64,000 nt of DNA from an uncultured Raoultella sp. (lineage in GTDB: Bacteria; Pseudomonadota; Gammaproteobacteria; Enterobacterales; Enterobacteriaceae): positions 1-64,000 of the forward strand of contig CAAEVH010000016.1 in assembly GCA_900759445.1 (NCBI GenBank), written 5' to 3'. Shown here piece by piece: positions 1,667 to 43,420 of this stretch. The position numbers were made by a program, and so were the translations under genes. Below the pieces are notes generated by a model that worked only from the letters and a program-made list of their open reading frames with translations, was not told the origin of the DNA and did not search any database. Numbering within the stretch: position 1 is the first letter of the stretch; each line of letters opens with the position of its first letter.

Positions 1667-2521
1667 ATGCTCAAAACCGTTCATCAAAAAGCAAAGCACC
1701 GCGTCCGGCCCCTGATGGCCTGGATAAAACTGCTGTGGCGGCGCATTGATGAAGACCATATGACCACGCTGGCGGGGAATCTCGCCTACGTGTCGTTACT
1801 CTCCCTGGTGCCGCTGATCGCCGTGGTCTTTGCGCTGTTCTCGGCATTTCCGATGTTTTCCGAGGTCAGCGGGCAGATTCGCCATTTTATCTTCGCTAAC
1901 TTCATCCCGGCGACGGGGGATGTCATCCAGGGATACATCGAACAGTTTGTCGCGAACTCCAGCCGGATGACGGCCGTCGGCGCCTTCGGGCTGATCGTGA
2001 CGTCACTGCTGCTGATGTATTCTATTGATAGCGCGCTGAACACTATCTGGCGCAGCACGCGCACCCGGTCCAAAATTTACTCGTTTGCCGTTTACTGGAT
2101 GATTCTGACGCTGGGGCCGCTGCTGGCGGGGGCGAGCCTGGCCATCAGCTCTTATCTGCTGTCTCTGCGCTGGGCAAGCGAACTGAACGGCGTGATTGAT
2201 GATGTGCTGCGTCTCTTCCCGCTGATTTTATCGTGGACGGCGTTTTGGCTGCTTTACAGCATTGTACCGACGACCCAGGTACGCAATCGCGATGCGATTA
2301 TCGGATCGCTGGTGGCGGCGCTGTTATTTGAGGCGGGTAAAAAAGCGTTTGCCTTATATATCACGGCGTTCCCGTCGTACCAGCTGATTTACGGCGTGAT
2401 AGCCGTGGTGCCTATTTTGTTTGTCTGGGTGTACTGGACGTGGTGTATCGTCTTGCTTGGGGCAGAAATTACTGTCACTCTCGAGGAATACCGCAAACTT
2501 AAAAAAGAAGAAACAGAATAA
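1667..2521 (+). CDS. yihY: YihY/virulence factor BrkB family inner-membrane protein
   Basis: This 284-residue protein belongs to the YihY (UPF0761, BrkB-like) family of polytopic inner-membrane proteins. About six hydrophobic segments are visible, for example [15 protein letters not shown] near residue 48, [14 protein letters not shown] near 107, and the C-terminal [19 protein letters not shown]. The conserved N-terminal [12 protein letters not shown] stretch is present. It was once called ribonuclease BN, but that assignment was later withdrawn, and its molecular function is not established. It sits tightly between yihX (2-base gap) and dtd (2-base gap), as in E. coli. Confidence 0.93.
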
Positions 2522-2523
2522 CT

Positions 2524-2961
2524 ATGATTGCATTAATTCAGCGCGTATCCCGTGCAAGCGTAACCGTGGAGGGCGAGGTGACGGGTGAAATCGGCCCGGG
2601 GCTTCTGGTGTTGTTGGGCGTCGAGAAAGACGATGATGAGCAAAAAGCGAATCGCCTGTGCGAGCGCGTGCTTGGCTATCGTATCTTCAGCGACGCCGAA
2701 GGAAAAATGAATCTGAATGTGCAGCAGTCCGGCGGCAGCGTGCTGGTGGTCTCACAGTTCACGTTGGCAGCGGATACCGAACGGGGTATGCGCCCGGGTT
2801 TTTCCAAAGGGGCCGCCCCTGACAGAGCAGAAGCGCTGTATGACTATTTTGTCGCGCGCTGTCGCCAGCAGGAGATGAACACACAAACCGGGAGATTCGC
2901 TGCGGATATGCAGGTATCACTGGTGAATGATGGTCCTGTGACCTTTTGGTTGCAGGTATGA
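2524..2961 (+). CDS. dtd: D-aminoacyl-tRNA deacylase
   Basis: Dtd hydrolyses the ester bond of tRNAs mischarged with D-amino acids (for example D-Tyr) and also Gly-tRNA-Ala, recycling the tRNA in the cytoplasm. At 145 residues it has the usual length. The two family signatures are visible: [13 protein letters not shown] near residues 70-82 (the SQxT active-site motif) and NDGPVTF near 135-141, the cross-subunit GPVT motif close to the C-terminus. It overlaps the next gene by four bases (ATGA at 2958-2961), which indicates translational coupling in a yihX-yihY-dtd-yiiD run. Confidence 0.97.
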
Positions 2962-3947
2962 GCCAGCTTCCGGGCCGGCTGCGGGTAACAAAAGAGAGTA
3001 CAGCTATGTATCACCTTCGTGTACCGCAAACAGAAGACGAACTCGAGAGCTACTATCAGTTCCGCTGGGAGATGTTGCGTAAGCCGCTTCATCAGCCCAA
3101 AGGATCGGAGCGTGACGCCTGGGATGCGATGGCGCATCACCAGATGGTAGTGGATGAAGAAGGCAACCTGGTTGCCGTCGGGCGGCTATATATCAATGCG
3201 GAGAACGAAGCCTCCATTCGTTTTATGGCCGTACACCCGTCGGTGCAGGATAAAGGCTTGGGTACGCTGATGGCGATGACGCTGGAGTCCGTCGCCCGTC
3301 AGGAGGGCGTTAAGCGCGTGACCTGTAGCGCTCGCGAAGACGCGGTGGATTTTTTTGCCAAGCTCGGCTTTGTTAACCAGGGCGAGATTACCACGCCAAC
3401 CACCACGCCTATCCGCCACTTCCTGATGATTAAACCGATCGCCTCGCTGGACGATATTCTGCATCGCGGCGACTGGTGCGGGCAGCTGCAGCAGGCCTGG
3501 TATCAGCACATTCCGCTCAGCGAAAAAATGGGTGTGCGCATTCAGCAGTACACCGGCAAAAATTTCATCACCACCATGCCCGAAGCCGGTAACCAGAATC
3601 CGCACCATACGCTGTTTGCCGGAAGTCTGTTTTCCCTGGCGACGCTGACCGGCTGGGGGCTGATCTGGCTGATGCTGCGCGAACGGCATTTGGGCGGTAC
3701 GATTATTCTCGCCGATGCCCATATCCGTTACAGCCAGCCGATTAGCGGCCGCCCGAGCGCAGTGGCCGATCTGGGTTCGCTCAGCGGCGATCTCGACCGT
3801 CTGGCGCGTGGACGTAAAGCCCGCGTGCAGCTGCAGGTTGAGTTGTTTGGCGGCGAGAGTCTGGGCGCCATTTTTGAAGGCATTTACATCGTTCTGCCCG
3901 CGAAGCCGTTTGGTTCGTATGAAGAGGGCGGGAACGAAGAAGAGTAA
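2958..3947 (+). CDS. yiiD: YiiD: GNAT acyltransferase fused to a thioesterase-like domain (MadA/FabY)
   Basis: The 329-residue product matches E. coli YiiD, also named FabY or MadA, which supports initiation of fatty acid synthesis; work on the E. coli protein assigns malonyl-ACP decarboxylase activity. Two parts are visible. An N-terminal GNAT domain (about residues 20-150) carries the acetyl-CoA loop region [15 protein letters not shown], and a C-terminal YiiD_C hotdog-like domain (about 180-320) includes [20 protein letters not shown]. The start at 2958 gives the E. coli N-terminus MSQLPG and overlaps the dtd stop, so it is preferred over an upstream in-frame codon at 2946 and a downstream ATG at 3006. 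Confidence 0.92.
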
Positions 3948-3962
3948 TTCCCGCCGCAGCGA

Positions 3963-4889
3963 TTATAGCGACCGACCTGGCGAACGGATTCGCCAGGCGA
4001 TATCTCCCATGGCATGGCGCGCCGCCAGACTGATGCCACCCAGCTGAAAGAAACCGTGAATCACGCCAGCATAGCGCTGGCAGGTACAGGCCACATTTTG
4101 CTCAACCATCCGTTGGTACAGCGCTTCGCCTTCATCGCGCAGCGGGTCATATTCGGCGGTGAGGATATGCACGGGCGGCAGACCGCTGAAGTCGTCACGC
4201 CAGAGCGGGCTTGCCTCCGGGTGTGCAGATTCCGTGGCGGGCAGGTACATTTCGTAGCCGCTCAGCAGCGTATCCCGGGTGATGATGTAATCCTCTCCGT
4301 TGCTGATGTAGCTTGCCGAAGCCGCGGTAGCGTCCAGCATGGGATAAATCAGAATCAGCTGCGCGGGCAGCCAGGTCCCCGCAGCTTTCAGCCGTAGCGC
4401 GGTGACGAGAGCCAGATTCCCCCCCGCGCTATCGCCCGCAAGGGTGATTCGTGAGGTATCCACCCCAAGCGACTCTGCGTGGCGCCGGATAATCTGCGCT
4501 CCCCGTTCCGCGTCATTGTGCGCGGCAGGAAACGTCTGCTCGGGCTCCAGCCGGTATTGCACGGCAATCACCCGGCAGCCGCTTTCATACGCCAGCTGGC
4601 GCAATTGTTTATCGTGGGTGGCGAAGCCGCCGCTGACAAAACAGCCGCCGTGATAGTAGATAACGGTAGGTAGAGGGCCGGCAGCATTCTGCGGTGATAC
4701 CACGCGAAAATTGATTCCTTCCAGCGTGATGTCGTCCACCTGCACACGCGTTTCGCTTTCTCCGGCCAGCACCGTACTGGCTACATAACCCGCCCTCCGG
4801 TCATCAATATTCTGCTGTCGTGAAGAGGGGCGCCCTGCGGCGATAAACTCCTCAACCAGCCGGGCGATACCTTGTTCCAGTGCCATCAT
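3963..4889 (-). CDS. Alpha/beta hydrolase, hormone-sensitive-lipase (Aes-like) family esterase
   Basis: This 308-residue cytoplasmic protein is a serine esterase of the HSL/group IV type. It has the oxyanion-hole motif YYHGGCFVSGG near residues 78-88, the nucleophile elbow GDSAGGN near 150-156, the acid residue in TAEYDPLRDEG, and the catalytic His in GVIHGFFQL near the C-terminus, so the full triad is present. The natural substrate cannot be read from sequence; short-chain acyl esters are typical of the family. It is convergent with yiiD (15-base gap), stands alone, and occupies the place where E. coli K-12 has yiiE and yiiF. There is no signal peptide. Confidence 0.88.
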   Translation of the reverse strand: MMALEQGIARLVEEFIAAGRPSSRQQNIDDRRAGYVASTVLAGESETRVQVDDITLEGINFRVVSPQNAAGPLPTVIYYHGGCFVSGGFATHDKQLRQLAYESGCRVIAVQYRLEPEQTFPAAHNDAERGAQIIRRHAESLGVDTSRITLAGDSAGGNLALVTALRLKAAGTWLPAQLILIYPMLDATAASASYISNGEDYIITRDTLLSGYEMYLPATESAHPEASPLWRDDFSGLPPVHILTAEYDPLRDEGEALYQRMVEQNVACTCQRYAGVIHGFFQLGGISLAARHAMGDIAWRIRSPGRSL

Positions 4890-5044
4890 TATATTCTTTT
4901 AATCTGTATGGATATACAGCGTTATAGCCTGGATTGCAGCCGATAGAAAAGGGTTTTTTTGTGAGAAATGAGCGCTGGGGCCGGGAGTGGGGCGTAGTAA
5001 AGCGAAGGCGTTCCTCGGCTGAGGTGCTTGCACATCGGGGTGGA

Positions 5045-5072
5045 GTGCCGGGTAACCTGGATTACCCGGCAC
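5045..5072 (-). terminator. Perfect hairpin downstream of fdhE
   Basis: An 11-bp perfect inverted repeat (GTGCCGGGTAA with TTACCCGGCAC, 6-base loop) lies 12 bases beyond the fdhE stop. It lacks a good T-run on the minus strand, so it is a weak terminator or a 3'-end stabilising hairpin for the fdo-fdhE transcript. Confidence 0.6.
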
Positions 5073-5083
5073 TATGAGGGGAT

Positions 5084-6013
5084 TTACTCCCCTTCACCCG
5101 GGAACATAAACGGGTTAATCGAACTTCTGGCGAAGCCTTCCTGCTCCATGCGGGCATCCAGCACCAGCGAGGCGAGATCGTCGGCCACGGCTTCCACTTT
5201 CGGATCTTTTTCCTGATACAGAATCTTCAGGTACGTTCCGCAGTCACCGCAGCTTTCGGCTTTCACCGCCGCGTCTTCATTTTCCAGCGACCAATAGTTG
5301 AGATCGCGGGTCTGTTCGCAGTTGCTGCATTTGATGCGCACCACGTGCCATTCAGTTTCACACAGGTTGCAGTGCAGGTAGCGCAGCCCCTGAGTGGTCC
5401 CAATCTGCACCATGCTGGAAACAGGCATTGAACCGCATACCGGGCAGAACTGGCGTGCTTCACCGTATTCGGCGCGGGCTTTACCTGGGATCAGGCTGGC
5501 CATTTGCGCCCAGTAGAGCGACAGGGCGGCCCAGATAAACGGCGCTTTATCACTGCTCACCAGCGAGAAGTCGGAAGCGAACAGCGCGCTTGCCATCTCT
5601 TCCAGCTCCAGATCGGAGGATTTTTCCAGATTCTCGATAACCGCCAGCGCGGTACCGCTCATCTCCGGCTTCAGCTCGGCAATGAGCGAATGCAGCAGCT
5701 TGTGCCAGTGCTTATCGCGCGGCAGGAGGTGAATATCCAGCGGCGGTTTGCCCTGCGCGTTGGCTTCTTTGATGCGCGCGGTCAGGTCCATTTGCAGCGG
5801 GTGGTCGTAGAGCACCACTTCCTGCGCGTGGGCGACCAGCGCGGCAAAACGCAGAAAATCGCCCAGCGGGTTGTTCTCTGCCAGCTCGCGCAGACGCTCT
5901 GCGCGGCGGTTGTAGAGGTTCTTGAGTCTGGGGAATAACAACGGCGGAATATAATCCGCCGTGCGTTTCTCGCTCGAACCCAGCTCATCTTGCGGGATTA
6001 TGCGAATACTCAT
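5084..6013 (-). CDS. fdhE: Formate dehydrogenase accessory protein FdhE
   Basis: FdhE is a cytoplasmic iron-binding, rubredoxin-like accessory protein needed for assembly and Tat export of the respiratory formate dehydrogenases. It binds the catalytic subunit before translocation. The 309-residue length equals the E. coli protein. Four CxxC motifs that bind metal are visible in the C-terminal half: CPVC, CNLC, CSNC and CGDC. The gene overlaps the end of fdoI by four bases (ATGA at 6010-6013), so it is the last gene of the fdoGHI-fdhE operon and translationally coupled. Confidence 0.97.
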
Positions 6014-6645
6014 TCAGTCTTATTTTCCTGTTTCTGGCGAACTTCTCGGTACCAGCGGGGGTGATGTTTCTTCGCCCATGTTTTGGTAACCCAGCCTTCC
6101 ACCATCGCGGTAATGGTGCCTTTCACCCACAGGGCGGCGTAAATATGCACCATGATAACCACAATTAGGGCAACGGCGGCAAATGAATGCAGCATGAGCG
6201 CTAACCGGATTACCGGGATTGAGAACGCAGGCGCAAAATACGGACGCCAGATGATCACACCGCTGACCAGCAGCAGAACCAGCAAAATAATCGCCGCCCA
6301 GAATACGCATTTCTGGCCGAAGTTATAGCGCCCGGTGTCACCCACTTCCTCGTTGACGACGATCTTACGAATATTCTTCGCCCAAAAGATATCATCCCGA
6401 TTGATTAGGTTATGGTGCCAGTAGCGGAAAAACATGATGATGAATGAGGCAAACATAATGACCCCAACAAACGGGTGCAGAATGCGCGCCAGCTGCGGAG
6501 TGCCCATGATTTGCATTAGCCAGTTGAAGGACGGGAAAAAGAATCCCAGTCCGCTTATCGCCGCCAGCATGAAGCAGAAGGCGGTGACCCAGTGGTTGAT
6601 GCGTTCCGGCGCCGTGTAGCGCACGATGGTGTCACGTCTTTTCAT
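6010..6645 (-). CDS. fdoI: Formate dehydrogenase-O gamma subunit, cytochrome b556
   Basis: FdoI is the inner-membrane di-heme cytochrome b subunit that anchors FdoGH and passes electrons from formate to menaquinone or ubiquinone. The 211-residue protein has four clear transmembrane stretches, for example [19 protein letters not shown] near residue 18 and [15 protein letters not shown] near 58. Candidate heme-ligand His residues are RINHWVTA and those of the third and fourth helices ([20 protein letters not shown]). It overlaps fdoH by four bases upstream and fdhE by four bases downstream. Confidence 0.97.
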
Positions 6646-7544
6646 TTGCGCACCTCGTCATTCTCTTCATGCAGGTTGTCCTCTTCCTCTTCCGCACGGT
6701 TCGGACCGACCCCGACATAGTGGAAGACGCTGGCTGCAAAGGTCGCGGCAAACCCTACCGCCGCGAGCGGTTTCCAGATTCCTTTCCAGAACTTCACGGT
6801 GGCGCTGATTTCCGGATTTTCCGGCAGGCCGTGATACAGATTCGGCTTGTCGGCGTGGTGCAGTACGTACATCACGTGCGTTCCGCCTACGCCAGCCGGA
6901 TCGTACAGGCCCGCATTGTCATATCCACGAGTTTTCAGCTCGGCGACGCGTTCGCCGGCCAGCACCTTCATGTCCTCTTTGGAGCCAAAGTGAATCGCCC
7001 CGGTCGGACAGGTTTTCACGCATGCCGGTTCCTGGCCCACGGTGACGCGGTCTACGCACAGCGTACATTTGTAGACGCGGTTGTCTTCCGGGTTGAGTCG
7101 GGGGACGTCAAACGGACAGCCGGCGATGCAGTAGCCGCAGCCAATACACTGTTCGGACTGGAAGTCGACGATGCCGTTGGCATACTGAATGATTGCCCCT
7201 TCCGACGGACAGGCCTTCAGACAGCCCGGATCGGCGCAGTGCATACAGCCATCCTTACGGATCAGCCACTCCAGTTTGTCGTTCTGTTCCACTTCCGAGA
7301 AGCGCATTACCGTCCAGGATTTGGCGGCCAGATCCGCGGGGTTATCGTACACCCCGACGTTGCTGCCGACTTCATCACGGATGTCATTCCATTCTGAACA
7401 GGCGACCTGACAGGCTTTACAGCCAATACAGGTGGTGACGTCGATTAGCTTCGCGACTTCCTGCTGGTGGTCCCGCGCCTGAGGCGCGGGAGTGAAACCG
7501 TTAGTCGCGGAACGACGAATGATGTCTTGCGATTGATAAGCCAT
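6642..7544 (-). CDS. fdoH: Formate dehydrogenase-O beta subunit (4Fe-4S electron transfer)
   Basis: FdoH carries four [4Fe-4S] clusters that relay electrons from FdoG to the cytochrome FdoI. It faces the periplasm, held by a C-terminal transmembrane helix ([20 protein letters not shown], about residues 258-277). The cysteine clusters appear in order: [35 protein letters not shown] and CTLC...CVKTC. Length is 300 residues as in E. coli. It has no own Tat signal, consistent with co-export with FdoG. It starts 12 bases after the fdoG stop. Confidence 0.97.
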
Positions 7545-7556
7545 AAGTCGTCTCCG

Positions 7557-10500
7557 TTACACCTTTTCCACGTTCACGAGGAAGGCTTTAAACTCCGGCG
7601 TTTGCGTGTTCGCATCGCCGACGAACGGCGTCAGCGTGTTGGCGATAAAGCCTTTCTTCGCCACCCCTTCATAACCCCAGTGGATAGGAATACCGATCGT
7701 ATCGATATCCTTACCGTCCACTTTCAGCGTGCGAATACGCTTGGTCACCACCGCCTTGGCTTTGATATAGCCGCGGTTGGAGGAGACGCGAACGGTATCG
7801 CCATGCGCGATGCCGAGCTTATTCGCCAGCTTCTCGCCGATTTCCACGAACTGTTCCGGCTGGGCGATGGCGTTGAGCAGCGCATGCTTGGTCCAGTAGT
7901 GGAAATGCTCGGTGAGACGGTAGGTGGTACCGACGTACGGGAACTTATCCGCTTTACCCATCTGTTCCAGGTCACCGCTAAAGACGCGGGCGGCCGGGTT
8001 AGAGACGACATTCGGGTGTAGCGGGTTGGTGCCCAGCGGCGTTTCAAACGGCTCATAGTGTTCCGGGAACGGACCTTCCGCCATCTTATCGAGAGCAAAC
8101 AGGCGACCCATACCTTCGGGCTGCATGATAAACGGTCCGACATCGCTGCCCGGTGCGGCGGCGCTGTAGTCCGGAATATCCATACCGGCCCATTTGGCGC
8201 CGTCCCATTTCAGAATCTGACGCTTCGGATCCCACGGTTTACCCTGCGGGTCCGCCGAGGCGCGGTTATACAGGATGCGGCGGTTGAGCGGCCACGCCCA
8301 GGCCCAGCCCAGCGTATTACCCAGCCCTGACGGGTCGGCGTTATCACGGCGGGCCATCTGGTTGCCTTCCGGCGTCCAGCTCCCGGCGAAGATCCAGCAG
8401 CCGCTGGAGGTGGTGCCGTCATCGCGCAGCTGCGCAAAGGAGCTGAGCTGCTGGCCTTTCTTCACCACTACCGCGCCGGTGACCGGGTCGGTCAGATCCG
8501 CCAGCGCCTTACCGTTGCTCTCCATCGCCACTTCTTCCGAAGCCGGTTCGTGCGGCGTGGAGTAGTTCCACGTCATATTCAGCACCGGTTCTGGCGTCGG
8601 GCCGCCTTCTTCGGCGTACATTTTCCGCAGGCGTAAGAAGATACCGGCCAGAATTTCACCGTCGGTGGTCGCAATCCCCGGGGCGTCCGCGCCTTTCCAG
8701 TGCCACTGCAGCCAACGCCCGGAGTTGACGATAGACCCGTTCTCTTCGGCGAAGCAGGTGGAGGGCAGACGGAACACTTCGGTCTGGATTTTCGCCGGAT
8801 CGACATCGTTCGACTCACCGTGGTTTTGCCAGAAGGTGGACGTTTCGGTGTTGAGCGGATCGATGGTCACCAGGAACTTCAGTTTCGACAGCGATTCGAC
8901 CACCTTGTTTTTATTCGGGAATGAGGCCACCGGGTTAAAGCCCTGGCACAGATAGCCGTTCACTTTGCCCTGGTGCATCATCTCGAAGTATTGCAGGACG
9001 TCGTAGCCCTTATCCCACTTCGGCAGCCAGTCGAAGCCCCAGCTGTTTTCCGCCGTCGCTTTATCGCCAAAGAAGGCCTTCATCATTGAGACGAAGAATT
9101 TTGGGTAGTTGCCCCAGTAGTTCACCTGATCTTTCAACAGTGGCTTCGGCGTGTTGGCGGTCAGGTAGGTTTGCAGGTCGGTCTGTTTCTCACTCGGAAG
9201 CGTCATATAACCCGGTAGGCTCTGCGACAGCAGCCCCAGGTCGGTCAGCCCCTGGATGTTGGAGTGACCGCGCAGGGCGTTCACGCCGCCACCGGCCATC
9301 CCCATGTTGCCGAGCAGCAGCTGGATCATCGCCATGGTACGGATGTTCTGCGCGCCGATAGAGTGCTGCGTCCAGCCGAGCGCGTAGAGGAATGACGCGG
9401 TTTTATCCGGTGCGCTGGTTTCGGCGATGTACTCGCAGACTTTCAGGAAGTCGGCCTTCGGCGTACCGCAGATGTTTTCCACGACGTCCGGGGTATAGCG
9501 GGAAACGTGCTGTTTCAGCAGGTTCCATACGCAGCGCGGATGTTGCAGGGAGGTATCGCGTTTGGCGAAGCCGTTTTCGTCCAGCTCATAGTTCCAGCTG
9601 GTCTTATCGTAGCTGCGTTTTTCCGCGTTATAGCCGCTGAACAACCCGTCGTCGAAGCTGTAATCCTCACGCACAATCAGGCTGGCGTTGGTATAGGCTT
9701 CGGTGTACTCGCGGTTGAATTTTTCGTTATTCAGCAGGTACAGGATGACGCCTGACAGGAAGGTAATGTCAGTCCCGGAACGAATCGGGGTATAGAAGTC
9801 GGCTACCGACGCGGTACGCGTAAAGCGTGGGTCGATAACAATCAGCTTCGCGCCGTTGTGAATTTTGGCTTCCATCGCCCAGCGGAACCCTACCGGGTGC
9901 GCTTCAGCGGCATTACCGCCCATCACCACGATCAGGTTGGCGTTTTTGATGTCAACCCAGTGGTTGGTCATCGCACCGCGACCAAATGTTGGAGCAAGAC
10001 TTGCTACCGTTGGTCCGTGTCAGACGCGCGCCTGGTTGTCGACCGCGAGCATACCGAGCGCGCGGGTGAATTTCTGCGTTAAATAGCCGGTTTCGTTACT
10101 GGAGGCTGAAGCGCACAGCATCCCGGTGGTCAACCAACGGTTGACGGTAGTGCCGGCGTCGTTTTTGGCGATAAAGTTGGCATCGCGGTCTTCTTTCATC
10201 AGCTTCGCGATGCGATCGAACGCTTCATCCCAGCTGATTTGCTGCCACTTGTCGGAGCCTGGCGCACGATATTCCGGGAATTTCAGACGACTTTCGGAAT
10301 GGATAAAGTCGACCAGACCCGCCCCTTTCGGGCAGAGCGCACCACGGTTGACCGGATGGTCAGGGTCACCTTCGATATGAAAGATGGATGCTTTGGCGTT
10401 TTTCGCACCGTCGCCGAGGCTATACATTAACAGCCCACAACCGACAGAACAGTACGTACAGGTGTTACGGGTTTCACGGGTACGCAGCAGCTTATATTGC

Positions 10501-10607
10501 CGGGTTTCCGCGAGCGCGGCGCCTGGGGCAAAACCCAGCGCTGCAGCCGTTGTGCCTGCCATACCGCCAGCGCAGATCTTAAAGAACTGCCTTCTGCTGA
10601 CCTGCAT
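7557..10607 (-). CDS. fdoG: Formate dehydrogenase-O catalytic subunit, selenocysteine- and molybdopterin-containing
   Basis: FdoG oxidises formate to CO2 in the periplasm using bis-MGD molybdenum, a 4Fe-4S cluster and selenocysteine. The gene reads as one frame of 1016 residues if the TGA at 10020-10022 is decoded as Sec196, in the context ARV-Sec-HGPTVA that is typical of the family. A SECIS hairpin starts at that codon. The N-terminus MQVSRRQFFKICAGG is a twin-arginine signal peptide, followed by the 4Fe-4S motif CTYCSVGC...LCPKG near residues 50-95. The in-frame TGA is therefore functional recoding and not a disruption. It heads the fdoGHI-fdhE operon and is divergent from fdhD, whose product is needed for its sulfuration. 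Confidence 0.97.
9981..10022 (-). promoter_or_regulatory. Bacterial SECIS element in fdoG
   Basis: Read on the coding strand from the UGA, the RNA can fold with a lower stem ACCAA/UUUGGU and an upper stem GG(U)AGCA/UGCUCC, with a bulged U and the apical loop AGUCU. This matches the architecture of the E. coli fdnG/fdhF SECIS recognised by SelB. Coordinates run from the Sec UGA to the end of the lower stem. Confidence 0.85.
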
Positions 10608-10764: not shown

Positions 10765-11601
10765 GTGAATAAGAACCCTCCCGAACAAATTGAAAATGTG
10801 ACAAGCATCACAGGATGTCGTCAGGTCGCGCTCTGGAAGCGCGATGATTTGCAACATCCGCAGTCTGACGAATTAGCCGAAGAGGTTCCTGTGGCGCTGG
10901 TCTATAACGGTATCTCACACGTTGTCATGATGGCCTCTCCCAAGGATCTGCAACGATTTGCCGTCGGTTTCTCATTATCCGAAGGGATTATTGAAAACCG
11001 GCGCGAGATCTACGGGATGGAGGTGGTGCAGGCCTGCAACGGTCTGGAAGTGCAGATTGAACTTTCCAGCCGTCGTTTTATGGGGCTGAAAGAGCGCCGT
11101 CGCGCGCTGGCCGGGCGCACCGGCTGCGGCGTTTGCGGCGTTGAGCAGCTCAACGATATCGGCAAGCCGGTGCAACCTTTACCTTTCACGCAAACCTTTA
11201 GCCTGGGGAATCTCGATCGCGCGCTGGAACAGCTTCGTGATGTTCAGCCGATTGGCCATATCACCGGCTGCACCCATGCGGCAGCGTGGCTGCGTCCGTC
11301 TGGTGAGCTGGCGGGCGGACACGAGGATGTCGGGCGTCACGTCGCGCTGGACAAACTGCTGGGGCGGCGCGTAGAAGAGGGCGATGACTGGCAATGCGGG
11401 GCGGCGTTAGTCTCCAGCCGCGCCAGCTACGAGATGGTGCAGAAGGCGGCAATGTGCGGGGTGGAAATTCTGTTTGCGGTTTCCGCCGCCACTGCGCTGG
11501 CGGTGGAGGTCGCGGAACGTTGCAACCTGACGCTGGTGGGCTTTTGCCGCCCGGGCAGGGCGACGGTTTACACCCATCCGCAGCGGCTGATCGCAGGTTA
11601 A
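10765..11601 (+). CDS. fdhD: Formate dehydrogenase sulfurtransferase FdhD
   Basis: FdhD transfers sulfur from IscS to the Mo-bis-MGD cofactor of formate dehydrogenases before export; it acts in the cytoplasm. The 278-residue protein has the essential cysteine motif GCGVCGV near residues 118-124, and conserved blocks [16 protein letters not shown] and [20 protein letters not shown]. The start is a GTG at 10765, which places the N-terminus ([11 protein letters not shown]) in register with E. coli FdhD. The gene is monocistronic and divergent from fdoG. Confidence 0.95.
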
Positions 11602-12044: not shown

Positions 12045-12066
12045 AAATGTGGTGTTTATCACGTTT
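12045..12066. promoter_or_regulatory. CRP-binding site, upstream copy
   Basis: The 22-bp stretch beginning AAATGTGG and ending ATCACGTTT matches the CRP consensus (AAATGTGA-N6-TCACATTT) at about 17 of 22 positions. It lies in the 400-bp gene-free region (11942-12342) in front of the phosphotransferase cluster, about 290 bases before the kinase start. Confidence 0.7.
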
Positions 12067-12195
12067 CTCTTCTTTGCTTTTGGCAACGAGGTTAAGCCTC
12101 TGGCAAGCAAAATGACGCGCTCTCCTCTCAATATTTAACCTAATGAATAATAAAGTTATTTAAAAATAACTGTTAAGACGATCTCATCTTTTAAG

Positions 12196-12211
12196 TGAGA
12201 TGTTCATCACA
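12196..12211. promoter_or_regulatory. CRP-binding site, promoter-proximal copy
   Basis: TGAGA-TGTTCA-TCACA differs from the CRP core TGTGA-N6-TCACA by one base. An AT-rich -10-like TATATC follows at 12228-12233, so the site could sit near the -40 region of the cluster promoter. Apart from the two CRP-like sites I see no other convincing signal in 11991-12342, which is noticeably AT-rich. Confidence 0.65.
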
Positions 12212-12342
12212 AAAAACACTCCATATTTATATCTGTCAATCGTTACAACGGATAAATTAATCATAATTATGTGATCTTGATTGCAAATCCAGGTCTTGAA
12301 CTTAGGGATAAATGTGGGCAAGCAAATATGACGGTGGTGACC

Positions 12343-13323
12343 ATGAAAATCGGTATTGTTATTAGCGGCGGCGATGTATCTGGAATTAATAATTTCATTT
12401 TTCAGGTTGCGAAACTCGCGAGCGCGGAGATCACCATTTTTAATGGTGGAATACCTGGGCTGCTCGATAAAAATCACCAGGACATCGCCTGGCGGGATCT
12501 TGTTGATTTCTCTATTTGTTCACTGCCTGTTATTACGTCCGGCCGAACCACTCGCAAATTGCTGAGGAATGAGTATGAAACTATAGCCAGGAAAATTAAG
12601 TCACTGCGCCTTGATGTACTTATTATGGCCGGTGGTGATGGCAGCCTACAGTTCCTTAATACGCTTAGCGAATTTGATATTAACTGTTTCGGTGTCGGGA
12701 TGACTATCGATAACGATGTATACGGTAGTGATTATACTATCGGATTTTCTACAGCCTGCGAACAAATTATCAAGGAGGTTTCTCGTTTAAGAAATACCGG
12801 CAGGGCATTACCTGGGCGGGTGTTTATGGTTGAAATATTAGGAGGGTATTGTGGAGAGCTAACGCTGCAGTCAGCGATTAAAAGTAATGCCGATATTGCG
12901 CTGATCCCGGAAGCACAGATGCCATTAGAGGATCTGGCTGAGCGCGTCAGAGGCAAGCTTCGCGAGCAAAACAGCGTGGTGATACTTTGCTCTGAAGGTT
13001 ACACCAGGGAGTACTCACCTGGGTTTCAAGGGGCTATCGATACGATGATCAAGCAGCTTGAGCCACGTATCGGTGTCCGCATCCGTAAAACCATCATCGG
13101 CTATGGACTGCGCAGCGGCGACCCGACCTGCGAAGAAATTTACCAGGGCACGATCATGGCGAATGAAGTTGTTCGCTGTATTCAGTCAGGAATGAAAAAT
13201 AAAGCCATTATTATAAATTCAAGCAATAAACCTATTCCAATTGACTTAGTCAGTATGAAAAAACGTCTGGTAGATATCGAAGGACATCATTATAAACTTG
13301 CCAAACAACTCAATATTATTTGA
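12343..13323 (+). CDS. PfkA-family ketohexose-phosphate kinase, divergent, in PTS cluster
   Basis: The 326-residue product is a 6-phosphofructokinase family member clearly distinct from the true pfkA at 42458. Retained features are the ATP loop SGGD (8-11), GGDGS (97-101, the ATP-dependent form and not GGDD of pyrophosphate enzymes), the catalytic TIDND (121-125, base Asp123), and Arg159, Arg248 and Arg257, equivalent to E. coli Arg162, Arg243 and Arg252. Altered features are Met120 in place of Gly124, Gly168 in place of Arg171, and Tyr254 in place of His249, all near the sugar-phosphate pocket. It probably phosphorylates the sugar phosphate delivered by the adjacent PTS for cleavage by the adjacent aldolase. 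The start was chosen by alignment; ATG at 12328 is an alternative. Codon use is more AT-rich than in flanking genes. Confidence 0.85.
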   Translation: MKIGIVISGGDVSGINNFIFQVAKLASAEITIFNGGIPGLLDKNHQDIAWRDLVDFSICSLPVITSGRTTRKLLRNEYETIARKIKSLRLDVLIMAGGDGSLQFLNTLSEFDINCFGVGMTIDNDVYGSDYTIGFSTACEQIIKEVSRLRNTGRALPGRVFMVEILGGYCGELTLQSAIKSNADIALIPEAQMPLEDLAERVRGKLREQNSVVILCSEGYTREYSPGFQGAIDTMIKQLEPRIGVRIRKTIIGYGLRSGDPTCEEIYQGTIMANEVVRCIQSGMKNKAIIINSSNKPIPIDLVSMKKRLVDIEGHHYKLAKQLNII

Positions 13324-13334
13324 GGAGACCCTAC

Positions 13335-13649
13335 ATGCTGAAAATTCTTTGCGTATGTGGCTGCGGCCTCGGTTCAAGCTTTGCCATCGAAATGACGGCG
13401 AAAGCAGTATTAAAGAAGCTGGAAATTCCTGCACATATTGAACATACCACCGTATCTGAAGCTGGAGCATTTAAATCTGACATTATTCTGACGCAAAAAA
13501 CATTCGCCGACATATTAACCGCCGACGCTACTGAAGAGGAAATAAAACGAGTGGTGGTCCTCAATAAGCTGACGGATAAAGATGAAATTGAGCGAAAAAT
13601 CGTCTCATTCCTGAAAGAGCGTAATCTGAAGGTGGCCGATCATGAATAG
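13335..13649 (+). CDS. PTS sugar transporter subunit IIB (ascorbate/galactitol type)
   Basis: A 104-residue stand-alone IIB protein that takes phosphate from IIA and donates it to the sugar during transport. The N-terminus MLKILCVCGCGLGSS holds the phospho-cysteine loop C-G-x-G-x-GSS typical of UlaB/GatB-like proteins; the acceptor is most likely Cys8. GAGGAG lies just before the ATG at 13335 and overlaps the kinase stop codon, which favours this start over a TTG at 13320 and suggests coupling. The 3' end overlaps the IIC start by eight bases. Confidence 0.93.
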   Translation: MLKILCVCGCGLGSSFAIEMTAKAVLKKLEIPAHIEHTTVSEAGAFKSDIILTQKTFADILTADATEEEIKRVVVLNKLTDKDEIERKIVSFLKERNLKVADHE

Positions 13650-15009
13650 CTTTATCGAGTTTATTGTAAAAGATTTGCTCGGCCAGGCTTCGATATTAAT
13701 CGCGTTTATTGCCATGCTGGGTCTGATCTTACAGAAGAAGTCAGTGGGTAAAACAGTAGAGGGGACATTTAAAACGCTGCTCGGGTTCTTAATTATGATG
13801 GCCGGCATTAATATTATTGTCGCCACCCTGAGCTTCCTTAACGATATCTTCACCCACGGTTTCGGGATGAAAGGATACATCACCGATGTCGCCGCTATCG
13901 CCGGTCTGGCGAATCGGGAGCTGGGTTCTGAAGTGGCGCTGACGCTGATGGTGATCTTTGCCGTTAACATTATTATCGCCCGCCTGACGCCGCTGAAATA
14001 TATCTTCCTCACCGGGCAGGCGCTGCTGTGGATGGCGACGATTGGCACGGTGATTGGCTACAAAGCCGGGCTGACCGGGCTGCCGCTGATCCTGACCGGC
14101 GGTATCTTTGGCGGCGTCATGGCGGTACTGATGCCGGCATTAGCGCAGCCGGTGGTCAGACGCATTACCGATTCTGACGATGTGGCCCTCGGCCATTTTT
14201 GCACCATCGGATATTTAGTCCAGGCAGCGGTGGCCAAAGTGGTGGGTAAAGGCTCCCGTTCCACTGAAGATCTTGAACTGCCTGATAACTTCAAGTTTCT
14301 GCAGGATACCTATCTCGCCATGGCGGTGGTGATGGTCCCCATGTACCTGATTCCGGCGCTGGCGGCCGGACCAGAGTATATCGCCCAGTTTTCCGGCGGC
14401 GTGAACTACATGATGTATGCCTTTATGCAGTCTGTTCAGTTTGTGGCAGGGGTCTTTGTCCTCTACAGCGGCGTGCGCTTATTACTGAATGAACTGGTCC
14501 CGGCTTTTCGCGGTATTGCCATGCGTATTGTTCCGGATGCGAAACCAGCGCTGGACTGCCCCGTACTGTTCCCTTATGCCCCGAACGCGGTCATCGTGGG
14601 ATTCCTGGCGACTACCGTGGGTTCGATCATCGGCATGTTGGTCTTCCCGATGTTTGGCCTGGCGATGATCCTCCCGGGACTGTTAACCAACTTCTTTGCC
14701 GGCGGTACGGCGGGCGTCTTTGGTAATGCGCTGGGGGGGCGTCGCGGGGCAATGATTGGCGGCGTGGTTCACGGTCTGTTTATTACTTTCCTGCCTGCCA
14801 TTCTGGTACCGATGCTTGAAAGCTACGGTTTTACCGGCGTCACATTCAGTGATTCAGATGTCATTAGTTCAGGGCTGGTATTAGGCCATGCCTTGCAGAA
14901 TAACTGGTTATTTGTCGCCTTGTTTATTGTTTTTGTCGCCGCACTGGCATGGTTCGTAAACGGTACATCATCTAAGCCTAAAGGGGAAAATATTCATGAG
15001 TCTGTATAA
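13642..15009 (+). CDS. PTS sugar transporter subunit IIC, UlaA/SgaT family
   Basis: This 455-residue polytopic membrane protein reads as the UlaA (SgaT) family of PTS permeases. The E. coli L-ascorbate IIC is 465 residues. About ten hydrophobic segments are visible, with family-like stretches TLLGFLIMMAGINIIV near residue 47, ARLTPLKYIFLTGQALLW near 113-130, and FAGGTAGVFGNALGGRRGAM in the C-terminal third. It forms the translocation channel and sugar site. The family includes ascorbate transporters, but no ula catabolic genes are here and a kinase plus aldolase are present instead, so ascorbate is an unlikely substrate. It overlaps the aldolase gene by 14 bases. Confidence 0.92.
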   Translation: MNSFIEFIVKDLLGQASILIAFIAMLGLILQKKSVGKTVEGTFKTLLGFLIMMAGINIIVATLSFLNDIFTHGFGMKGYITDVAAIAGLANRELGSEVALTLMVIFAVNIIIARLTPLKYIFLTGQALLWMATIGTVIGYKAGLTGLPLILTGGIFGGVMAVLMPALAQPVVRRITDSDDVALGHFCTIGYLVQAAVAKVVGKGSRSTEDLELPDNFKFLQDTYLAMAVVMVPMYLIPALAAGPEYIAQFSGGVNYMMYAFMQSVQFVAGVFVLYSGVRLLLNELVPAFRGIAMRIVPDAKPALDCPVLFPYAPNAVIVGFLATTVGSIIGMLVFPMFGLAMILPGLLTNFFAGGTAGVFGNALGGRRGAMIGGVVHGLFITFLPAILVPMLESYGFTGVTFSDSDVISSGLVLGHALQNNWLFVALFIVFVAALAWFVNGTSSKPKGENIHESV

Positions 15010-15838
15010 TTTCAACGATATTCTGAAAGTCGCCCAGCAAAGAAATTACAAAGCTATTGGCTCATTTAATTTGCACTGTATTGAAATGCTACCGGCTTTT
15101 TTTAAAGCTGCGCAAAAGAGCAATAGCCCTTTAATGATTCAAATCTCGACCGGTACGGCGGAATATCTTGGCTATCGTTTACTGGTGGATGCCGTTCGCT
15201 CACTGGCGGAAAGTGAAAATGTGCCAACCTGTCTGCATCTGGATCACTGTTCTGATATTAGCGCGATTGAAACGGCCATGAATGCCGGATTTTCATCGGT
15301 TATGTATGACGGTTCACACCTGGGGCTCGAAGAAAATATCGGCAATACGCGGATTGTGGTGGAAATGGCGCGGCCGCGGAATATCACCGTTGAAGGGGAG
15401 CTGGGCGCCATCGGGGGTTCAGAAGATGGTAAAGCCGTTGCCGCAGAGGATATCTGTTTTACCACCGTCGAAGACGCCACGCGCTTCGTAAATGAGACCC
15501 AGGTTGACATGCTGGCTGTATCCGTCGGCACGGTGCACGGCCTTTATACCGGAAAGGCGCAGATCCAGCATCAGCGCCTGAAGGAGATTAGCCGGGCTAC
15601 GGGCGTTCCGCTGGTGCTGCACGGCGGTACCGGCGTCAGTGATGAGGATATGCGTAAAGCGGTGACTGAAGGGATTAATAAGGTCAATGTGGGCACAGAA
15701 ATGAACGTGCAGTGGGTTGACCAATGTAAAACCACTTTTGAAAAAGGCAAGGTTAATGACAGCGTGCGTAAGTTTTTAATTCCCGCCAATAATGCGGTCA
15801 CGCAGGTGCTGATGGAAAAAATGGAATTATTTAAATAG
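14996..15838 (+). CDS. Class II ketose-1,6-bisphosphate aldolase (GatY/FbaA-like)
   Basis: A 280-residue zinc-dependent class II aldolase. It should split a ketohexose 1,6-bisphosphate into dihydroxyacetone phosphate and an aldehyde phosphate. Key residues are visible: LHLDHC (Asp83 catalytic, His84 zinc), VEGELGAIGG near 132-141, GTVHGLY with zinc His181, and VLHGGTGVS with His209, followed by the phosphate loop INKVNVGTEMN. Length and motifs are closer to GatY/KbaY tagatose-bisphosphate aldolases than to the longer FbaA. It overlaps the IIC gene and shares the operon with a PfkA-type kinase, which together define a ketose-phosphate cleavage route. The stereochemistry of the substrate cannot be read from sequence. 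Confidence 0.9.
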   Translation: MSLYNFNDILKVAQQRNYKAIGSFNLHCIEMLPAFFKAAQKSNSPLMIQISTGTAEYLGYRLLVDAVRSLAESENVPTCLHLDHCSDISAIETAMNAGFSSVMYDGSHLGLEENIGNTRIVVEMARPRNITVEGELGAIGGSEDGKAVAAEDICFTTVEDATRFVNETQVDMLAVSVGTVHGLYTGKAQIQHQRLKEISRATGVPLVLHGGTGVSDEDMRKAVTEGINKVNVGTEMNVQWVDQCKTTFEKGKVNDSVRKFLIPANNAVTQVLMEKMELFK

Positions 15839-15874
15839 TCCAAACCGCAATAATAGATTGTTATTACCAGGTTA

Positions 15875-15893
15875 GCCCTGCACCCGTCAGGGC
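15875..15893 (+). repeat. Intercistronic hairpin between aldolase and 89-residue gene
   Basis: GCCCTG and CAGGGC form a 6-bp stem with a 7-base loop just upstream of the ribosome-binding site GGGAGAAG. There is no T-run, so it may limit translation or stabilise mRNA and is unlikely to terminate. Confidence 0.5.
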
Positions 15894-15904
15894 GGGAGAA
15901 GATT

Positions 15905-16174
15905 ATGTTTCAATCACTGAAAGCGTTGTGGAAAAAAGAGAATCATCCGCCGCAGGATTATGATCGGCTGTCCCGTGAGCTGGCTGAGGAAATAAAGACG
16001 CTGGAAAATGAACTGCAGGGCGAGCCTGGCAATGGTGAAATCCAGAAGGCATTGATGCTGAAGTATAACAGGGCGCTATCGGTGTATGCTAAAAGCAAAA
16101 TACATCGTCAGGATATCGACGCACTATTTATTCGTATTGATGAGTTACGCAATATTATTCGCCGTAATATCTAG
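15905..16174 (+). CDS. Uncharacterised 89-residue helical protein in PTS cluster
   Basis: I do not recognise this gene. The product is 89 residues, highly charged and predicted mostly helical. It has a short basic amphipathic start (FQSLKALWKKENH), a likely coiled-coil region (RLSRELAEEIKTLENELQ), and a second charged helix ending DELRNIIRRNI. There is no signal peptide, transmembrane segment, cysteine or obvious catalytic motif. It has a good ribosome-binding site (GGGAGAAG), and its stop codon overlaps the Shine-Dalgarno of the following IIA gene, so it is a genuine member of the operon. A structural or regulatory partner of the PTS or the aldolase is possible, but this is inference from position only. 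Confidence 0.75.
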   Translation: MFQSLKALWKKENHPPQDYDRLSRELAEEIKTLENELQGEPGNGEIQKALMLKYNRALSVYAKSKIHRQDIDALFIRIDELRNIIRRNI

Positions 16175-16183
16175 GGAGGCGTA

Positions 16184-16621
16184 ATGACCATAAAAGATTT
16201 GCTGATTGAGGCCGATGCGATTCAGGTCGGCGTGATGGAGTCTGACTGGCGCAAGGTGATTGAGCTTGCCGCCAGTCCCCTGGTGGCGAACGGGTATATC
16301 TCTGAGAGTTATAGTAAAGCGGTTATTGATAATACTCTCAATCATGGAGCTTATTACGTATTCGAAGAGGGGATTGCCATTCCCCATGCCAGACCGGAGT
16401 GCGGGGTGAAGCGAAACTGCTTCAGTCTGGTGGTATTAGATAAACCGATTCAATTTGCCGGAAGCGACAGGGCGGATATCGTCATTATGTTCGGCGCTCA
16501 GGATAGTAATGCGCATATTGAAGAGGGAATTCGGGCGATTGTTGCGCTGCTGGACAATAACGAAACCATGGCCAGGCTTCGCGCCGCCAGTACCAGAGAA
16601 GAGGTGATTGCGTTGTTATGA
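16184..16621 (+). CDS. PTS sugar transporter subunit IIA (fructose/mannitol/ascorbate type 2)
   Basis: A 145-residue PTS IIA type-2 domain that accepts phosphate from HPr on a histidine and passes it to the IIB protein encoded at 13335. The active-site motif GIAIPHARPE is present with phospho-acceptor His68. It resembles UlaC and the IIA domains of fructose and mannitol permeases. GGGAGG at 16173-16178 precedes the ATG. The gene overlaps the downstream P-loop kinase gene by four bases (ATGA), indicating translational coupling. With the IIB and IIC genes it completes a full enzyme II complex. Confidence 0.93.
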   Translation: MTIKDLLIEADAIQVGVMESDWRKVIELAASPLVANGYISESYSKAVIDNTLNHGAYYVFEEGIAIPHARPECGVKRNCFSLVVLDKPIQFAGSDRADIVIMFGAQDSNAHIEEGIRAIVALLDNNETMARLRAASTREEVIALL

Positions 16622-17172
16622 ACAGACATCTCACTGCAGGCTGTAAAACCGTGATCTTAATTAACGGCATCCCCGCTTCGGGAAAGAGCACGATAACCCA
16701 GGCGCTATCGCAAACCTTTGGCCTGCCGCTCCTGACCATCGATGAGATTAAAGAGCCGTTTATGGCGTGCTTTACCGACATCGATCGGCCTTTTAACCGT
16801 CAGTTGGGATGCGCGGCCTACGAGGTTATCTGGTCGATCATCGGGAATTCGCCAGCCAACGTTATCTGGTTAATCGACGCCTGGTTCGGTTTCCAGCCCC
16901 GGGAAACTCTGCAGCGGTTGCTGCATCAGGCGGGGGTTGAGAAAGTGGTTGAGATCTGGAATCAAATCTCCCCTGAGCTTGCCGTGTCACGCTATGCCAC
17001 GCGCCTGCAGGAGCGCCGCGCGGGCCACCCCGGAGAAGAATATCTGCCGGAACTTGCCCTGCTGGCTGAACGGGCTGAGCCGATGCGATTTGGCCCGGTC
17101 TTCACGGTGGATCAACAGCAACCGCTGGATATTGTCAGGCTATCGGCGTGGATTAAGCAGACGCTAGGTTGA
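16618..17172 (+). CDS. P-loop small-molecule kinase-like NTPase, last gene of PTS cluster
   Basis: A 184-residue protein with a clear Walker A loop, GIPASGKST (17-25), near the N-terminus. An acidic strand follows (VIWLIDAWFGF), then an arginine-rich lid-like segment (SRYATRLQERRAGHPGEEYL near 130-149). This is the layout of AAA_33/nucleoside-kinase-like small-molecule kinases such as gluconate or shikimate kinase; chloramphenicol-phosphotransferase-like proteins are related too. The start overlaps the IIA stop, so it belongs to the operon. The substrate is unknown. It could phosphorylate a sugar taken up or made in the pathway, complementing the PfkA-type kinase, but a regulatory NTPase is also possible. 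Confidence 0.8.
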   Translation: MNRHLTAGCKTVILINGIPASGKSTITQALSQTFGLPLLTIDEIKEPFMACFTDIDRPFNRQLGCAAYEVIWSIIGNSPANVIWLIDAWFGFQPRETLQRLLHQAGVEKVVEIWNQISPELAVSRYATRLQERRAGHPGEEYLPELALLAERAEPMRFGPVFTVDQQQPLDIVRLSAWIKQTLG

Positions 17173-23575: not shown

Positions 23576-23890
23576 TCAAGCGAGATAAAACACCTCTTTG
23601 AGCTCCGCGCTCACCGGGCTGTTGTCCGGATTGGCAGGCATCACATCGCGCATATGTTGCCACCAGCGCTGGCAGACATCGGTACTGGCGACTGCATTCC
23701 ACCGCTCCTCAGATTCAATTTCCACCGTGGCGAACAGCAGATTGCGCTCTTTATCGAGATAAATCGCGTAGCGATGCGCGCCCTGTGCTTTGAGTACCGC
23801 CTCCAGCTCCGGCCAGATGGGATTATGGCGACGCTGGTACTCCTCATGCGCGTCGGGATTGACCTGCATGACAAAGGCTTTGCGGATCAT
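23576..23890 (-). CDS. rhaM: L-rhamnose mutarotase
   Basis: RhaM interconverts alpha and beta anomers of L-rhamnose, supplying the form used by the isomerase. The 104-residue length equals E. coli RhaM. The catalytic His region [10 protein letters not shown] (His22) and the conserved WWQHMRDVM are visible. It overlaps the lactaldehyde reductase gene upstream by four bases (ATGA at 23887-23890), so it is the last gene of the long minus-strand rha transcript and convergent with rafB. Confidence 0.96.
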
Positions 23891-42457: not shown

Positions 42458-43420
42458 ATGATTAAGAAAATCGGTGTATTGACAAGTGGCGGTGATGCTC
42501 CGGGCATGAACGCAGCAATTCGCGGCGTTGTGCGCGCAGCATTAACGGAAGGTCTGGAAGTTTTTGGAATCTATGACGGTTACCTCGGCCTGTATGAAGA
42601 TCGCATGGTTCAGCTCGACCGCTATAGCGTTTCTGACATGATCAACCGCGGCGGCACTTTCCTCGGGTCAGCACGCTTCCCGGAGTTCCGCGAAGAGCAT
42701 ATTCGCGCCGTGGCGCTCGAGAACATGAAAAAGCGTGGCCTGGATGCGCTGGTCGTTATCGGCGGCGATGGCTCTTACATGGGGGCGATGCGCCTGACTG
42801 AGATGGGCTTCCCGTGCATCGGCCTGCCTGGCACCATCGATAACGATATCAAAGGCACTGACTACACCATCGGATTCTTTACCGCGCTGAGCACCGTGGT
42901 GGAAGCCATTGACCGCCTTCGCGATACCTCTTCTTCCCACCAGCGTATTTCGGTTGTTGAAGTGATGGGACGTTACTGCGGCGACCTGACTCTGGCTGCG
43001 GCGATTGCCGGCGGCTGTGAATTCATCATGGTGCCGGAAGTGGAATACACGCGTGACGATCTGGTTGCTGAAATCAAAGCGGGCATCGCCAAAGGTAAGA
43101 AACACGCTATCGTGGCCATTACCGAACATATGTGCGACGTGGACGAGCTGGCGCACTACATTGAGAAAGAAACCGGCCGTGAAACCCGTGCGACCGTTCT
43201 GGGCCACATTCAGCGCGGCGGTTCCCCGGTTCCTTATGACCGTATTCTGGCCTCGCGCATGGGCGCCTACGCCATTGAACTGCTGCAGCAGGGATTTGGT
43301 GGCCGCTGCGTCGGTATTCAGAACGAGAAGCTGGTGCACCACGACATCATCGACGCTATCGAGAACATGAAGCGTCCGTTCAAAAATGACTGGCTGGATT
43401 GCGCGAAGAAACTGTACTAA
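42458..43420 (+). CDS. pfkA: ATP-dependent 6-phosphofructokinase isozyme I
   Basis: PfkA phosphorylates fructose-6-phosphate to fructose-1,6-bisphosphate, the committed step of glycolysis. The 320-residue protein is almost identical by eye to E. coli PfkA. All active-site motifs are intact: [37 protein letters not shown] (Asp127), EVMGRYCGD (Arg171) and [10 protein letters not shown] (His249, Arg252). It is a useful control for the divergent paralogue at 12343. Downstream it abuts rraA, unlike in E. coli K-12. Confidence 0.98.

Follow-up and report, generated by a model that had tools for sequence, protein, structure and literature searches.

The closest described relatives of the operon reported here are two phosphotransferase system (PTS) routes. 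The tagatose-6-phosphate route (LacCD; GatYZ/KbaYZ; TagKTH of Klebsiella) shares with it PTS uptake, a second phosphorylation, and cleavage of a ketose 1,6-bisphosphate, LacC and TagK being PfkB-type kinases. The UlaA system phosphorylates furanose-like ascorbate at C6. The present locus lies in a stretch of 64,000 nucleotides from an uncultured Raoultella sp. (contig CAAEVH010000016.1; hereafter the window, whose coordinates are used throughout) and comprises genes for a PFK-like kinase (PFK), IIB, IIC, an aldolase, an 89-residue protein (H89), IIA, and a P-loop kinase (KIN). Judged from its sequence, a pathway of ketose uptake, phosphorylation, and cleavage is likely, and we consider it reasonably probable that the operon is self-contained, with PTS uptake, addition of a C1 phosphate, aldol cleavage, and KIN as the former second kinase.

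Gene content and conservation of the operon

Seven open reading frames (ORFs) follow one another on the + strand, from the ATG at 12343 to 17172:

12343..13323, + strand: PFK-like kinase of the PfkA superfamily, distinct subfamily, 326 residues
13335..13649, + strand: PTS IIB, 104 residues
13642..15009, + strand: PTS IIC of UlaA/EIIC-GAT type, NCBIfam NF009551, 455 residues
14996..15838, + strand: class II ketose-bisphosphate aldolase, 280 residues
15905..16174, + strand: H89, three-helix protein, 89 residues, with a TPR-like counterpart in PFK-less modules
16184..16621, + strand: PTS IIA (EIIA_2), 145 residues, motif IPHARPE
16618..17172, + strand: KIN, P-loop small-molecule kinase (AAA_33-like), 184 residues

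Pfam matches in gene order are PFK, PTS_IIB, EIIC-GAT, F_bP_aldolase, none, PTS_EIIA_2, and AAA_33 (below cut-off), as expected from the original prediction of seven genes of these families on one strand. The tight packing that it described, with 4-14 bases of overlap or very short gaps, applies to most junctions (stop-to-next-start distances of +11, -8, -14, +66, +9, and -4 bases) but not to the 66 bases between the aldolase and H89 genes. Its cluster start at 12045 falls in the upstream region: relatives begin PFK at the position of the ATG 12343, positions 12045-12342 hold no start used by the family, and the GTG at 12271 chosen by the ORF finder lies inside a conserved CRP-like site.

A search of species-representative contigs with 11 PFK queries confirmed 95 stretches, and the analysis was continued with the best 80 loci. 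All 80 have PFK, IIB, IIC, H89, IIA, and KIN in this order on a single strand, and in 71 of them (type A) the gene that separates IIC from H89 is the class II aldolase, so that the co-occurrence of these proteins in relatives is borne out. The remaining nine (type B; L088, L090-L097) carry instead a class I aldolase of LacD/YihT type, F50, behind KIN, a position that F50 also takes in L011 (a Sodalis plasmid) and L014. That two unrelated aldolases replace each other within one operon is the strongest indication that its steps include aldol cleavage. Compared with Klebsiella michiganensis (L020; all seven genes) and K. pneumoniae (L025; six of seven, IIA having a value from L020 alone), the dN/dS ratio is 0.03-0.06 for PFK, IIB, IIC, aldolase, and IIA, and 0.12-0.15 for H89 and KIN. 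With order and strand kept in 80 of 80 loci and dN/dS low, the arrangement is no product of chance: the seven genes are a real, conserved, intact, and coupled operon. Interrupted-looking genes occur in L087 (PFK) and L089 (IIC). In L015 (genome G008), PFK is split in two pieces, from 9853 and 11109, about 750 bp apart, probably through an insertion, and the other six genes are matched.

The identity of PFK to the PfkA encoded elsewhere in the window (42458-43420) is 28-30%. PFK matches PF00365 (204.4 versus 30.9 bits), shows the catalytic Asp residues in the alignment, and keeps its catalytic and phosphate-binding residues, while remaining below the PFKA_ATP equivalog cut-off for 6-phosphofructokinase (161.6 versus 371.35 bits). 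The window aldolase keeps the class II motifs HLDH, xHG, and LHGG and passes TIGR00167 (268.6 versus 215.6 bits). F50 matches LacD and YihT structures, the best being 8TNF ("DUF2090 domain-containing protein"), and retains the Lys/Glu pair of LacD. The best model for IIC is NF009551, a sugar IIC with no named substrate (828.6 versus 657 bits), and the NF009553 cut-off is also exceeded. H89, first described as unknown, indeed has no Pfam match, but it is a small helical protein whose counterpart in PFK-less modules is TPR-like (TPR models below cut-off); as a guess, it is probably an adaptor beside IIC.

Modules without PFK

The IIC query returns a match at E 1e-80 or better in 110 of the 394 genomes sampled from the order. 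After the 12 carriers of the cluster, the best matches are G625 and G673 (68-69%), followed by 11 genomes of family f207 (58-62%), and none of these 13 genomes returns PFK at E 1e-50. Among G625, G673, G715, G786, and G500, PF00365 finds an ordinary PfkA in each, plus a sub-threshold fragment in G786. Six of the 13 loci were examined. G625 and G673 (type C) encode a SorC-type regulator (with a Sugar-bind domain seen in G625), F50, KIN, IIA, IIB, IIC, and a small TPR-like protein. In each of the four loci from f207, a IIA part lies within a protein of ~700 residues, accompanied by IIB and IIC, a small protein, an aldolase of class II (44-46%), and a distantly related P-loop kinase. The same set as in f207 is found on Enterococcus gilvus and E. 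raffinosus plasmids, with a IIC 84% identical to that of the f207 locus L104, and the IICs of L104 and of the window type are both above the NF009551 equivalog cut-off. The f207/Enterococcus kinase is 20-21% identical to KIN (hhalign probability 83.7).

A tblastn search for KIN in plasmids gives 30 records, 21 of them from Rhizobium, and the listed matches are 44-50% identical, except one in K. pneumoniae at 72%. The 30 records include Cryobacterium, Sphingobium, Streptomyces, and Deinococcus, and the six regions opened were L011, L115, L116, L117, L119, and L120. As an aside, CP125156.1, a 5.37-Mb K. pneumoniae record catalogued as a plasmid, looks like a chromosome. In rhizobia, KIN makes up the C-terminal portion of a "ROK family protein", as seen from the domains of L115. 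It is 41-47% identical to the window KIN, and this ROK-KIN adjoins F50, a regulator of SorC type, and an ABC transporter of ribose type. The rhizobial F50 is 64-71% identical to the Sodalis one (seven loci). L121, found via F50, has the regulator, F50, and ROK-KIN with a different transporter. KIN occurs in 11 of 378 genomes sampled from the phylum, only in such modules, eight times with the PTS module and three times as ROK-KIN, a layout confirmed by L133-L135. Of these three genomes, G1060 returns no match for the PFK family, and each of the other two has one frame, of 406-407 residues, that matches more weakly. A HAD phosphatase and a PdxJ-like gene lie beside the SorC-type regulator in L115 (4535-6037) and L121 (6034-7473), and HAD-type genes are also seen 3' of the class I aldolase in L011, L014, and L088.

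Since KIN, or a distant P-loop kinase in its place, is retained where PFK is lacking, PFK appears as the extra enzyme and KIN as part of the core. A set of ROK, KIN, and aldolase would suffice to take a sugar to two triose phosphates, and the rhizobial KIN is thus most likely the enzyme of the second phosphorylation. Where the module bears PFK, KIN has the motif KEPFM without exception (86 of 86: 73 in type A, counting the window, and 13 in type B). Where PFK is missing, KIN has K[N/T]PFL, again without exception (11 of 11: two type C PTS, nine ROK-KIN), the distantly alike f207/Enterococcus kinases being left out of this count. In a tree of 46 of the 97 motif-scored rows, one branch (support 100/99) parts KEPFM from K[N/T]PFL. 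We infer that this switch reflects an acceptor change linked to the gain of PFK.

Proposed pathway and alternatives

By analogy with UlaA, IIA, IIB, and IIC would import a 2-ketose and phosphorylate its terminal carbon. PFK, whose key residues are kept, would add a C1 phosphate, and the class II aldolase, or the class I LacD/YihT-type enzyme in the sister type, would split the bisphosphate into dihydroxyacetone phosphate (DHAP) and an aldose phosphate. KIN, as the sole dedicated second kinase of the PFK-less versions, fused to ROK in rhizobia, was most likely the original second kinase of the pathway, its acceptor having shifted once PFK joined. The complete route of two phosphorylations and cleavage first proposed is plausible but incomplete: the role of defining second kinase does not fall to PFK, as modules lacking it retain KIN or a distant kinase of P-loop type. 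It is a tentative idea, somewhat short of an even chance, that KIN is a third unrelated solution to the second phosphorylation beside PfkA and PfkB, acting in PFK-less modules on a ketose monophosphate before the LacD/YihT aldolase, and that the arrival of PFK changed its pocket (K[N/T]PFL to KEPFM) and put the module on a different sugar outside the known pathways. The sugar itself is probably a ketose other than fructose, D-tagatose and D-psicose being disfavoured for the window type by published growth data.

Several observations weigh against this pathway. A simple two-phosphate route does not explain two candidate second kinases, PFK and KIN. The motif switch lies on one branch, so it is a single event confounded with ancestry and not a proof. 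PfkA His249 is replaced by Tyr/Phe in PFK, Arg171 by Gly/Ala, and Met169 is also changed (in what we take to be the PfkA numbering), and the PFK acceptor may therefore not be a hexose 6-phosphate. The window aldolase falls under all NCBIfam cut-offs except that of the broad TIGR00167, and IIC also exceeds the cut-off of NF006919, "PTS ascorbate transporter subunit IIC" (483.5 versus 380 bits). Lastly, the contexts of most of the 30 plasmid KIN records and the 1009 proteins of another search stand outside the comparison.

The retention of KIN beside PFK would be explained by a different order of steps, which we regard as quite unlikely: PTS or ROK would phosphorylate C1, the ketose 1-phosphate would be cleaved to DHAP and a free aldehyde, KIN would phosphorylate the aldehyde, and PFK would provide a shortcut by adding a C6 phosphate. 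An acidic Glu near the conserved KIN Asp in the PFK-bearing type fits this scheme. However, the Arg near the aldolase C terminus, which presumably holds the second phosphate, is kept, the ROK-KIN fusion suggests consecutive steps, and ROK kinases usually act on C6. An ascorbate-like Ula system is highly improbable: it is favoured by the NF006919 score, but IIC scores best with NF009551, and UlaD, UlaE, UlaF, and UlaG return no match in window positions 1-27000 or in the fetched flanks of 79 of the 80 loci. The pairing of an UlaA-type channel with ketose-bisphosphate enzymes in place of Ula enzymes, noticed at the outset, is thereby upheld. A complete and separate ulaG/ulaDEF set with its own IIC and IIA (1921-7755) is present in L066, a few kb from the module.

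Among ketoses, D-tagatose is unlikely but deserves weighing; the PTS would yield tagatose 6-phosphate, PFK and/or KIN the 1,6-bisphosphate, and the aldolase would cleave it. PMC10101011 reports that PfkA makes tagatose 1,6-bisphosphate from the 6-phosphate. The rhizobial binding protein is orthologous to PDB 5DKV (E 2.6e-160 and 5.1e-154 in L115 and L117; next best ~1e-35), which we take to be an Agrobacterium vitis protein with alpha-D-tagatopyranose, and the models closest to the aldolase of the rhizobial modules are those for tagatose-1,6-diphosphate aldolase, with scores under the cut-off. Against it, the window aldolase scores 296 bits with fructose-bisphosphate and 227 bits with tagatose-bisphosphate models, both sub-cut-off, and the KIN motif differs between the tagatose-linked and window types. 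Loci L018 and L019, with the full module, presumably come from the very type strains of R. ornithinolytica and R. terrigena that were acid-tested. According to Table 2 of PMC11096500, these two are D-tagatose acid negative; elsewhere in the genus, R. planticola and R. electrica are negative, R. lignicola positive, and R. scottia variable. Cedecea sulfonylureivorans, whose genome (L063) holds the whole module, is D-tagatose negative in PMC12671600, where the text gives the same result for two Dryocola species that the table lists as "na". Dryocola baronae is recorded as positive. Of the species with such results, those checked for the module are the negative R. ornithinolytica, R. terrigena, and C. 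sulfonylureivorans, and a pathway that is slow or not induced could escape an acid test.

D-psicose (allulose) and L-sorbose, both 2-ketohexoses and neither excluded by the tagatose data, are together improbable substrates. Klebsiella has a mannose-type sorbose PTS, which counts against L-sorbose. PMC6020474 reports that psicose growth of K. pneumoniae NTUH-K2044 is impaired on loss of a permease encoded at a separate accessory locus, the module being assumed in this strain from the K. pneumoniae type strain (L025). In PMC11096500, R. scottia and R. lignicola produce acid from L-sorbose.

Upstream region

Three elements precede PFK:

12196..12211, + strand: distal CRP-like site TGAGATGTTCATCACA, one mismatch to TGTGA-N6-TCACA, with equivalent sites in other loci
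12270..12285, + strand: proximal CRP-like site TGTGATCTTGATTGCA, two mismatches, exactly 74 bp 3' of the distal site
12308..12313, + strand: putative -10 element ATAAAT, at class II CRP distance as read from the sequence

Allowing up to two and three mismatches, a CRP-like pair at exactly 74 bp is found in 77 of 82 related upstream regions (the window, L011, and the 80 loci), and is not found in L019, L048, L058, L081, and L087. Spacings of 70-73 and 75-78 bp give 0-1 of 82, and 50 resampled sets a mean of 0.02 and a maximum of 1/82. The pair is common to three of four Vibrio loci, the Pectobacterium loci, and Sodalis. The operon is probably controlled by CRP via two putative sites 74 bp apart. 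Between them (12196-12285), a TGTCAA motif is kept across genera in many loci, as judged by eye. Regulator-like genes near the module vary by genus, with no common family. In L012, L039, L058, L072, L073, L076, L077, and L083, a DeoR-like gene adjoins the module, lying upstream of PFK in the same orientation, and is possibly a local regulator of those eight copies. Within the operon, a GCCCTG...CAGGGC inverted repeat (15875-15893) lies immediately 5' of the ribosome-binding site of H89 and may form a hairpin that acts in processing or in the control of translation.

Distribution and genomic setting

The closest named match is R. ornithinolytica L018, with a PFK 99% identical to that of the window. 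PFK is present in 15 of 60 genomes of relatives (13 of 20 within the genus), in 12 of the 394 sampled from the order, and in one of 369 sampled from the class, namely the window's nearest genome; the E. coli collection returns no match. What may be a complete sugar pathway is found in species of Klebsiella, Raoultella, Pantoea, Serratia, and Pectobacterium.

In the window, the module is located between fdhD (10765-11589) and rhaM (23582-23890). The site was indeed the one proposed, but a simple replacement of frv genes is contradicted by L029 and L030, in which frvRXBA and the seven-gene module stand side by side. Neighbours vary, with an fdhD homologue in 15 of 83 loci and pqq-like genes, identified by eye, in many Pantoea loci; hence the cassette moves as a unit, or its surroundings were rearranged. 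In a different genome, another UlaA-like PTS (IIC 48%) with an epimerase-like gene lies near fdhD (L112, 6292-9048), and the fdhD junction may therefore be a hot spot for PTS cassettes. Further upstream, fdoG (7560-10607, - strand) has an in-frame TGA at 10020-10022 that is read through, as expected of the selenoprotein formate dehydrogenase-O, and its product shares 92% identity with FdoG of E. coli along 1016 residues.

Comparison with known systems

A search of Creative Commons-licensed PubMed Central text found no published operon with the same gene set, in agreement with the original prediction. The cluster is not TagKTH, UlaDEFG are unmatched in window positions 1-27000 and in 79 of the 80 loci, and the acid tests speak against D-tagatose. 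TagKTH was considered and rejected: it has fructose-type transporters (PMC10101011), while the window IIC is EIIC-GAT and the kinase PF00365. The tagatose-6-phosphate route as a whole shares with the present modules its aldolase families, class II GatY/KbaY-like and class I LacD-like. It differs in its fructose-, lactose-, or GatC-type IIC, as opposed to the UlaA type, and in its PfkB-type kinase, in place of PfkA-type and P-loop kinases; the window-type module adds H89 and has tagatose-negative carriers. GatZ/KbaZ return no match in window positions 1-27000 or in the 80 loci. The Ula L-ascorbate PTS of E. coli (ulaABC) belongs to the same IIA/IIB/IIC superfamily, but the window IIC is of a different subfamily and the module is devoid of lactonase, decarboxylase, and epimerases.

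The rhizobial ROK-KIN module shares the KIN family with the window and the class I aldolase with sister type B, whereas it relies on 5DKV-type ABC uptake and a ROK kinase in place of the PTS, has no PFK, and carries K[N/T]PFL in KIN. The Enterococcus-plasmid/f207 operon follows the same gene logic as the window, with the f207 IIC in the same equivalog (NF009551), but has no PFK, a distant kinase, and a IIA embedded in a protein of ~700 residues. This comparison of modules separates the core from the extra kinase, points to KIN, and lists disfavoured sugars, so that the question of the substrate becomes directly testable. As far as our searches show, the gene combination and KIN are undescribed, while the kind of pathway is known; within it, the little-studied KIN family, elsewhere fused to a sugar kinase, may represent a new way of solving one phosphorylation step.

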